Assembly (NCBI RefSeq): GCF_030814655.1
Contig: NZ_JAUSVK010000001.1
Span: 6,207,001-6,271,000 of the forward strand
From: Labrys monachus
GTDB lineage: Bacteria > Pseudomonadota > Alphaproteobacteria > Rhizobiales > Labraceae
Direction of reading: 5' to 3'
DNA length: 64,000 bases
A program made the translations under genes and the position numbers. A model generated the notes under the pieces. That model was not told the DNA's origin, did not search any database, and was given only the letters and a program-made list of their open reading frames with translations. Each line of letters starts with the position of its first letter. Position 1 is the stretch's first letter. Positions 34,769 to 36,651 of the stretch are shown one piece after another.

Positions 34769-35110
34769 CCTTCTCCCCGCAAACGGGGCGAAGGGCCAGC
34801 GGCGTCGCGTTTCGGAAGGGCGGGGCGAGATGGCGGCGTCGATAGATGCCTCGATGCCGATGTCCTCTCGCCCTGCGAAGCGGGGAGAGGATAGAGGTGA
34901 GGGGCGCCGCCCCGGCCTGCCGATCCGGCGCCGGCTATCGCTTTACACGGAAGCGTTGGTGCAGCCCCTCATCCTTACCTTCTCCCCGCAAGCGGGGCGA
35001 AGGGACGGCGGCGTCGCGTTTCGGAAGGGCGGGGCGAGATGGCGGCGTCGATAGATGCCTCGACGCCGATGTCCCCTCGCCCTGCTTTGCGGGGAGAGGA
35101 TAGAGGTGAG
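34769..35110. repeat. 209-bp tandem repeat family B, copies 1 and 2 (left part)
   Basis: Copy 1 spans 34769-34977 and copy 2 begins at 34978; the period is 209 bp. Each unit starts CCTTCTCCCCGCAA with a stem to GGGGCGAAGG and contains GGCGGCGTCGATAGATGCCT and TATCGCTTTACACGGAAGCG. Copy 2 is broken at 35110 by the IS110 element and resumes at 36268. These repeats give rise to apparent open frames that I reject as genes. Confidence 0.9.
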
Positions 35111-35125
35111 CGACTATCTGGCTTG

Positions 35126-36073
35126 TCAAGTTGCGTTGGCGAAAGCGATGCGCGCATCGCGTGCTTTTGCGTTGAGCTTGACGAGAAGTTTGCGGGCCAG
35201 GGCGATACGGATGACCATTTTGGGCTTCTTGGCATCCAGCAACCTCTGGTGGAATTGTTTCAGGCCGGGGTCGTAGCGACGGGCGATGTCGGCGACCAGG
35301 AAGAGGATCGAGCGCACCGGAGCCCGGCCGGCGCGGATATGGCGCTTGCCTTCGAGTGCGCCGCTTTCCCTGGCGATCGGGGCAAGGCCGACCAGTTTGG
35401 CGATGGCTCGGTTGGAATAGGTGCCGATTTCCGGCAGGTCCGCCATCAGGCGGGCGATCGAGCGATTGGCCACGCCCTTGACCGACCGAAAAGTCTCCCC
35501 CAGATGGCTCCAGAGGGGATCCTCGTCGATCAGACCGGCGATCTCGCCCTCCAGCGAACGCGACTGGCGTTTGAGGAAGGCGATCAATTCGTCCAGGCTG
35601 GCGAGAGCCTTGGCGTCGGTCGTTATCTGGCGCCGCTGCTTCTGGACCACAAGGTCGCTCGTGACCTGGCCGAGCCGGCGTACAAGCGCCGTCAGGCTTT
35701 GCTGGGCCAAGCTCGGCGGCGGATCGGGCCGCATCTGCTTCACTTCGGCGAAGCGCCGGATCATGCCCGCATCGATCCGGTCGGTCTTCTCCAGCACCCC
35801 CATGGCTTCGGCGAAGCGGCGCACCGACCGGGCATTGGCCAGGGCACAGGGGATGCCAGCCTCCCACAGAAGCAGGAAGGCCAGCCGCTCATAGCCGCCG
35901 GTCGCCTCCATCACCACCAATTCAACGCCATGCTCCCGGCACAAGGCCGCAAAGTCGGCGATCTGCGCCGCGTCGTTGATGAAAGAAGCTCTCACCACCT
36001 CGCCACGCGGGTCCAGCATCTCCACGTCGAGACGCGCCTTCGAAACATCTGCTCCACAAAACTGATGCGCCAC
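35126..36073 (-). CDS. IS110-family DEDD transposase/recombinase
   Basis: 315 residues from GTG 36073. The N-terminal DEDD RuvC-like domain begins FCGADVSKARLDVEML and continues VVMEATGGYE and VLEKTDRIDAGMIRRFAEV. The C-terminal transposase domain has VKGVANRSIARLMADLPEIG and the conserved-serine region LVGLAPIARESGALEGKRHI. IS110 enzymes recombine donor and target guided by a structured RNA from the element's own non-coding end. The gene looks intact. Confidence 0.95.
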   Translation of the reverse strand: MAHQFCGADVSKARLDVEMLDPRGEVVRASFINDAAQIADFAALCREHGVELVVMEATGGYERLAFLLLWEAGIPCALANARSVRRFAEAMGVLEKTDRIDAGMIRRFAEVKQMRPDPPPSLAQQSLTALVRRLGQVTSDLVVQKQRRQITTDAKALASLDELIAFLKRQSRSLEGEIAGLIDEDPLWSHLGETFRSVKGVANRSIARLMADLPEIGTYSNRAIAKLVGLAPIARESGALEGKRHIRAGRAPVRSILFLVADIARRYDPGLKQFHQRLLDAKKPKMVIRIALARKLLVKLNAKARDARIAFANAT

Positions 36074-36079
36074 GGTAAC

Positions 36080-36226
36080 CTGCCTTGTTCGTGCGATTGC
36101 GATCCAGCGACTATTCGGTCGTACGTGACAACGGCGAAGATCCCAGGCTCACCTGCGGTTGTAACCTGAGGGGCAACGGGCGACTTCACCGCACCCGAGG
36201 ACCGGTGGCCACCGGTCCTCGGGCTC
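36080..36226 (-). ncRNA. predicted IS110 bridge RNA
   Basis: Read on the minus strand 5' to 3', the segment has three parts. First is a 5' hairpin: 36223-36194, CCCGAGGACCGGTGG and its perfect inverse. Second is a target loop with GCCCCTCA (36174-36167) and AGGTGAG (36154-36148). Third is a donor loop with ATAGTCGCT (36114-36106) and ACAAG (36088-36084). The target guides match both strands of the insertion site GGTGAGGGGC in the family B repeat. The donor guides match the element's two ends (CGACTAT at 35111-35117 plus core, and ACAAG at 36264-36268). Both loops share the same layout around core CT. The arrangement follows that established for IS621; the outer RNA limits are estimated. Confidence 0.8.
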
Positions 36227-36268
36227 TGTCGCTTCAATCCAACATCAATCGTGATGTCCAGATACAAG

Positions 36269-36479
36269 GGGCGCCGCCCCGGCCTGCCGATCCGGCGCCG
36301 GCTATCGCTTTACACGGAAGCGTTGGTGCAGCCCCTCATCCTTACCTTCTCCCCGCAAGCGGGGCGAAGGGACGGCGGCGTCGCGTTTCGGAAGGGCGGG
36401 GCGAGATGGCGGCGTCGATAGATTGCCTCGACGCCGATGTCCCCTCGCCCTGCGAAGCGGGGAGAGGATAGAGGTGAGG
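36269..36479. repeat. 209-bp tandem repeat family B, rest of copy 2 and partial copy 3
   Basis: 36268-36344 completes copy 2 (133 + 77 bp, one base more than 209 because of the core duplication). Copy 3 runs 36345-36479 and ends at the same GATAGAGGTGAGG point where copy 2 was hit. A family C palindrome (GGCGGGACGCCCGCGCTCCC, about 36556-36577) lies beyond. Confidence 0.88.
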
Positions 36480-36651
36480 AGCGCCGCCGCCGCGCAAGGC
36501 GTTTCCACTGGGGACAGGCGACACGGCGAGCCAGCCCGAGGGAGAGGAAGAGCCGGCGGGACGCCCGCGCTCCCGGGGTTAACAAAATTTGCGTTATTTC
36601 GCGGCACCATAGCGGGCCGAGACATCGTCGCGGCCTGAGCGGGAGCACATC

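Follow-up and report, generated by a model that had tools for sequence, protein, structure and literature searches.

The window (the whole stretch of DNA analysed, 64,000 nt) contains an IS110-group insertion sequence on the minus strand, from 36268 to 35109, with a length of 1158 bp when one CT core is counted (Table 1). The recombinase ORF is intact and carries the domains PF01548 (E 1.2e-20) and PF02371 (E 3e-12), both above the curated Pfam cut-offs. Only two solved structures were matched at E 0.001, the IS621 and ISCro4 transposases. The catalytic residues listed in Table 1 are present; they were read from an alignment to IS621, using what we take to be its DEDD positions, with positions and residue offset counted by hand. 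As aligned, the DEDD residues and the catalytic serine indicate a recombinase of the IS110 group. The corresponding serine of IS621 is S241, according to an excerpt of PMC11208158.

The left non-coding end is longer than the right one (193 vs 15 nt), as is typical for the IS110 group. The arrangement of the IS1111 group, with the bridge RNA in the right end, was not found in this element, its right end having only 15 nt. The preliminary description had located the left end properly, with a length of 194 bp; without the core, it measures 193 nt.

Joined together, the flanks of the element are identical to the uninterrupted neighbour unit GAGGTGAGGGGCGCC (34894-34908), the 2-bp overlap being the CT core. 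On the minus strand, the restored insertion site reads ...GGCGCCC-CT-CACCTCTATCC... The 2-bp CT overlap was found at both genome copies of the element, in agreement with the recombination at a short core known for the IS110 group.

In the surroundings (34769-36490), a dispersed repeat is present as three units in tandem, beginning with a partial one. This partial unit has an intact, unoccupied target at its end, the next unit houses the element, and the last one closes with a target word altered at one base, GCTCCTCACC. Directly 5' of the left end, at 36280-36268 of the minus strand, the repeat flank contributes a terminator-like palindrome (GGGGCGGCGCCCC, then TTGTAT). Five terminator-like palindrome sites were present within 35000-36500, compared with 1.0 in shuffles. 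The one at 36280-36268 could shield the element from outside transcription.

Table 1 Features of the insertion sequence and of the neighbouring unoccupied target, in window positions.
Feature	Position	Strand	Details
CT core, left end	36267..36268	-	preceded by flank GGCGCCC; junction set against the uninterrupted unit 34894-34908
Left non-coding end	36074..36266	-	193 nt, with predicted bridge RNA; opens with TGTATCTGG after the core
5' stem-loop	36194..36223	-	30-nt palindrome; with one extra G-U pair ~14 bp, 4-nt loop; 12/14 pairs changed on both sides, strongest covariation
Target-binding loop (predicted)	36131..36192	-	9-bp outer stem; CCCG/UGGG inner stem; internal loop; GGU-UACA-ACC hairpin at the apex; from fold and covariation
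Left target guide	36169..36174	-	GCCC+CT, same sense as the left half and core of the target
Right target guide	36148..36154	-	AGGTG+AG, antisense to core and CACCT
Donor-binding loop (predicted)	36068..36130	-	stem conserved, includes the transposase GTG start codon; no two-sided changes in stem
Left donor guide	36106..36114	-	ATAGTCG+CT, equal to the right end of the element
Right donor guide	36084..36088	-	ACAAG, antisense to the left end CTTGT of the element
IS110 DEDD/Ser recombinase	35126..36073	-	315 aa, GTG start; D9, E56, D98, D101 and S237 align with IS621 residues
TTGACA, candidate -35 of circle-junction promoter	35122..35127	-	TGA stop codon inside
Right non-coding end	35111..35125	-	15 nt, terminates in ATAGTCG
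CT core, right end	35109..35110	-	followed by flank CACCTCTATCC
Uninterrupted twin target in adjoining repeat unit	34894..34908	+	GAGGTGAGGGGCGCC

Predicted bridge RNA and its guides

The 193-nt left end folded 3.2 SD better than shuffles, none of 200 being as good. With the guides held open, the predicted fold comprises, from 5' to 3', a stem-loop, a target loop (9-bp and 4-bp stems) and a donor loop (7 and 4 bp). Within the target loop, the left guide is followed by a small hairpin and by the right guide, and the donor loop is built alike. In this form, the modelled RNA has the two internal loops expected of a bridge RNA, whose guides address both strands of the target as well as of the donor, core included. 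The preliminary description had counted on both guide pairs lying in internal loops, which holds for the fold with open guides; in the free minimum-energy fold, the two target guides are partly paired to one another. The 15-bp hairpin it reported at 36223-36194 is indeed a perfect 30-nt palindrome at the DNA level, while the RNA forms a 14-bp hairpin with a 4-nt loop and an outermost G-U pair.

The structure was evaluated on an RNA alignment (A2) with 16 of the 19 sequences of alignment A1, the three acidobacterial ones being held out. Of all cells, 90.5% were paired, and two-sided changes were found in 19 of the 44 pairs. The covariation score was 0.380, compared with 0.145 in shuffles (0 of 500 as good) and with 0.108 or less when the structure was slid, the collapse occurring already with a shift of one column; having been derived from one of the 16 aligned sequences, the structure is favoured against the slid controls. 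Covariation was located in the 5' stem-loop, the outer stem of the target loop and the apical hairpin of the donor loop. The target-loop outer stem also covaried in a test of its own with 19 sequences (0 of 2,000 permutations). In the donor-loop stem, no two-sided changes were found among the 16 sequences, and the donor-loop region on its own gave no advantage over shuffles, 161 of 200 of which folded as well (z 0.81), so that this stem rests on conservation and analogy.

No Rfam family matched in the window at gathering thresholds. An RNA model built from the 16 sequences was searched against 50 chosen sources and matched 24 of them at E up to 1, including the window and the second copy in its own genome. 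The model recovered the held-out acidobacterial relatives directly 5' of their recombinases (L042, L043, L057 and L053 with 89-113 bits, L041 with 79). Elsewhere it scored 99 bits for the rhizobial L035 and 43-53 bits for more distant ones, among them L059, L070, L060 and L065. In the own genome, the two strong matches corresponded to the two copies; two further matches were weak and lay antisense at the palindrome.

All guide words of the preliminary description were recovered at its positions: GCCCCTCA (36174-36167), AGGTGAG (36154-36148), ATAGTCGCT (36114-36106) and ACAAG (36088-36084). To count chance fits, we required CT with 4 left bases in sense, then CT with 5 right bases in antisense, within 45 nt of each other. 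By this 4+5 rule, the left end fitted a single one of the 6,399 CT dinucleotides on both strands of the window, the unoccupied twin target at 34901. Relaxing the rule to 3+5 or 4+4 gave two places each, the twin target and one other, and when 5 left bases were required the own site itself failed. At the occupied sites of both copies, 4 of the 6 non-core left-guide bases match, the distal ones being mismatched.

Target word, relatives and alternative readings

With a probability of about 0.94, we read the locus as an insertion sequence of the IS110 group that relies on bridge-RNA-guided recombination for its movement. The earlier decoding of the left end as an IS110 bridge RNA was borne out by the guide loops (held open), the structural covariation, the covariation of guides with flanks, and a second copy in the same motif.

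The 11-bp target word GCCCCTCACCT (GCCC-CT-CACCT) occurs at 31 exact sites in the genome, compared with 4 for the word reversed. Of these sites, 25 are found at one edge of the dispersed repeat, i.e., within 3 bases of it among the 46 listed matches reaching the end of the unit. Beyond the tandem array of the window, matches of at least 100 bits start at base 51 or later of the 209-bp unit, indicating that the 209-bp period stems from a local tandem arrangement. The fit of the guides to the own site was retained from the preliminary description, whereas its 209-bp repeat was rejected as the target in favour of the 11-bp word.

A search of the genome for further copies listed one other full copy, in the same motif and orientation (GCCC-CT-CACCTCTATCC), in another member of the repeat. 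It equals the window copy at 1156 of 1158 bases and encodes the same protein, the two differences (window 35312 and 35204) being silent changes in the recombinase gene. No copies were listed at sites unrelated to CCCTCACC; besides the two full copies, the genome search gave two matches, both of them self-matches of the palindrome.

An unlikely but still serious alternative is that the bridge-RNA element has by now died, or that its second copy was produced by ordinary recombination between repeats. Only two copies were found, and with differences at 2 of 1158 bases they are not freshly copied; several relatives are decayed, and a promoter scan of the integrated region found none. However, the ORF is intact with its catalytic residues present, and the two copies encode the same protein, while the repeat pieces adjoining the second copy have only 81% and 92% similarity to those of the window. 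The near-equality of the copies inside such diverged repeat pieces speaks against their carriage on a larger duplicated segment. Judged from the intact ORF and the closeness of the two copies, the element may be active or recently have been so.

Near relatives were found in Rhizobium, Bradyrhizobium, Methylobacterium, Caulobacter and Vineibacter. On genome contigs there were 185 relatives, and the best 80 of these were retained. Protein searches gave hits in 14 of 60 whole genomes (E 0.001), in 11 of 397 genomes of the order (1e-50) and in 4 of 385 genomes of the class (1e-65), the own genome being counted in the last two. Among plasmids, one record from Rhizobium sophoriradicis was found by protein at 1e-60, and 12 records by DNA, one of which covered 80% or more of the query. 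The viral contigs contained one relative, 39% identical.

For the comparison of guides with flanks, 33 loci were taken (by end motifs, plus L035, L040 and L043), of which L035 and L043 were not parsed; the resulting 31 rows gave 19 element types. Loci duplicating either of the two sites in the own genome were excluded. Left flanks were usable in 18 of the 19 types and right flanks in 17. The left flank was too short in L074 and had only 8 bases in L044-L050, which lie at contig edges. L056 was counted unchanged (2/6 left matches), and L034, whose right guide was misparsed, has no right flank and is outside the right-side counts. L040, L056, L074, L150 and L151 looked decayed, with early stops or changed start codons, and their guides were still readable.

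Across the 19 types (31 loci, own included), the target guides varied and the donor ends were nearly constant. Over the inner 4 bases, the left guide had 3.46 matches to its own left flank vs 2.20 when permuted (18 types), and over 5 bases the right guide had 4.63 matches to its own right flank vs 2.80 (17 types). For each side this was reached by 0 of 20,000 permutations, also without the three acidobacterial elements (15 left and 14 right types). By position, -6 was at chance, -5 was weak (1,053/20,000), and -4, -3 and -2 were strong, while -1 matched at 0.94 and hardly varied (2,201/20,000). Positions +1 to +5 were matched at 0.76-1.0 (at most 403/20,000), and +7 and +8 were at chance. These matches point to a footprint of about 4 left bases, the core and 5 right bases. 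From the "CA" by which the preliminary left guide extended beyond the core, the C tracked the target weakly (0.94 vs 0.74, 145 of 20,000 permutations as good), and the A was rejected as a guide base (0.43 vs 0.42 permuted across relatives).

Position +6, just past the right guide, matched the target in 0 of 17 types (permuted mean 0.17); the mismatch may be structural, as the start of a hairpin arm, or a selected end of pairing. In the 16 aligned sequences, the right target guide was followed by C (15 times) or T (L036), and this C can pair with the G preceding the donor core. The right donor guide was followed by G in all 16; this G can pair with the base preceding the target core (C in 17 of 18 types, T in one). 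In 16 of the 17 types, the left donor guide followed the single variable base of the right end (T or C); it did not in L074, which has an early stop. The left donor guide terminated in CA instead of CT in 4 of 17 types (L041, L042, L057 and L146), and in GT in L074. Five copies from one genome (L145, L154, L156, L157 and L158) had the right-flank motif CTCACCC in common, with variable left flanks matching at 3-5 of 6 bases, which suggests that their left half is read more loosely.

That the left end serves only as a translational control leader of the transposase, the protein alone reading the target, is very improbable. The start codon lies in a predicted stem, and the leader fold of ISPpu9 likely hides the ribosome site (excerpt of PMC8450116); but a leader leaves unexplained why loop bases track their own flanks on both strands, and the leader and bridge-RNA roles can hold together. 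Chance matches from short words common to a GC-rich repeat and a GC-rich left end deserve almost no credence, the motif being short and C-rich and the targets of the relatives alike, but with only the twin target passing the 4+5 rule in the window and no permutation reaching the guide-flank covariation on either side.

Proposed mechanism and comparison with known systems

In the bridge-RNA-guided reading, excision would join the ends of the element as a circle, with the junction ATAGTCGCTTGTATC. The circle would set the right-end TTGACA 17 nt before TATCTG in the left end, a candidate -10 recognized by eye, giving TTGACA-N17-TATCTG as a possible junction promoter. TATCTG fits 3 of 6 bases of the E. 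coli consensus (by eye) and is weak by E. coli rules. Of the 17 elements whose right end could be parsed (own included), 16 carry TTGAC 13-14 nt ahead of the core, the exception being L056; in all 10 of those 16 with an open frame of 311-315 codons ending there, TTGAC encloses the TGA stop. The junction transcript, if expressed, would hold the bridge RNA (5' stem-loop, target loop and donor loop) and continue into the recombinase gene. Bound to the recombinase, the target loop would pair with both strands of GCCC-CT-CACCT, mostly at the dispersed-repeat edge, and the donor loop likewise with the two strands of the ATAGTCG-CT-TGT circle junction. Strand exchange by the recombinase at the CT core would then lead to one insertion orientation.

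Three features of the clade are mild: recognition weighted to the right (5 bases past the core), the TGA inside the TTGACA of the possible junction promoter, and the GTG in the donor-loop stem. The last was dropped as a clade-specific trait; in IS621, too, the fold extends over the AUG, and ISPpu9 probably conceals its ribosome site (PMC8450116, in excerpt). It is conceivable, though we rather doubt it, that the clade is a distinct bridge-RNA variant with its 11-bp footprint slid to the right and with one transcript choosing between bridge RNA and translation. Such a choice would be imposed by the donor-loop stem, which holds the start codon, and by the right donor guide, which runs into the presumed ribosome site. 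If true, one RNA fold would set the supply of both recombinase and guide.

The element appears to be a new and very legible example of the mechanism described in 2024, its non-coding end spelling its own ends and the repeat-edge word. Its bridge RNA was decodable from a single raw genome window and confirmable from relatives. The 19 naturally reprogrammed types (own included), with donor ends nearly constant, offer a panel for finding which guide bases matter, and could supply recombinases with longer right guides. Some orthologues carry longer right guides, according to an excerpt of PMC11208160.

The published systems below are cited from excerpts of the respective papers. The insertion of IS110-family elements into REP sequences was reported in 2006 (PMC1525189), and the IS110 RNA mechanism in 2024 (PMC11208160, PMC11187229). 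IS621 from E. coli, of the IS110 group, shares with our element the DEDD/Ser recombinase, the bridge RNA in the left end, the CT core, the order of 5' stem-loop, target loop and donor loop, the sense-then-antisense order of the guides and the REP targets (PMC11208160, PMC11208158). Both left ends start with CTTGTAT. The recombinases match with 95 bits, and the RNA model of the present clade does not match IS621 (L163) at E up to 1. The guides of IS621 have 9 left and 4 right bases by cryo-EM, core included, i.e., 7 and 2 non-core bases, compared with about 4 and 5 here, and its left donor guide is counted as including just the C of the core (PMC11208158). The bases following the two right guides here fit the handshake pattern of IS621 (PMC11208158), at the first of its two positions only.

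ISPpu9, ISPpu10, ISPa11 and ISRm19 (PMC1525189) resemble our element in having an IS110-family transposase and in inserting into dispersed extragenic repeats; they come from other hosts, and are likened by description, not by repeat or guide sequence. The seekRNA of ISEc21, of IS110 type, similarly derives from the upstream non-coding region and matches both target strands, but its main form is a shorter seekRNA (PMC11187229), this likeness also being one of description, not sequence.

Closer at hand, a second IS110 is present in the own genome in four copies (L027, L029, L032 and L033). Its left end also starts with CTTGTAT, and the RNA model matched upstream of its gene with 46.6 bits (e.g., L027), whereas its recombinase is 34% identical and its flanks differ, with GATCCC before the left end in three copies and ATTCCT in one. 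The own genome is host to two IS110 elements aimed differently.
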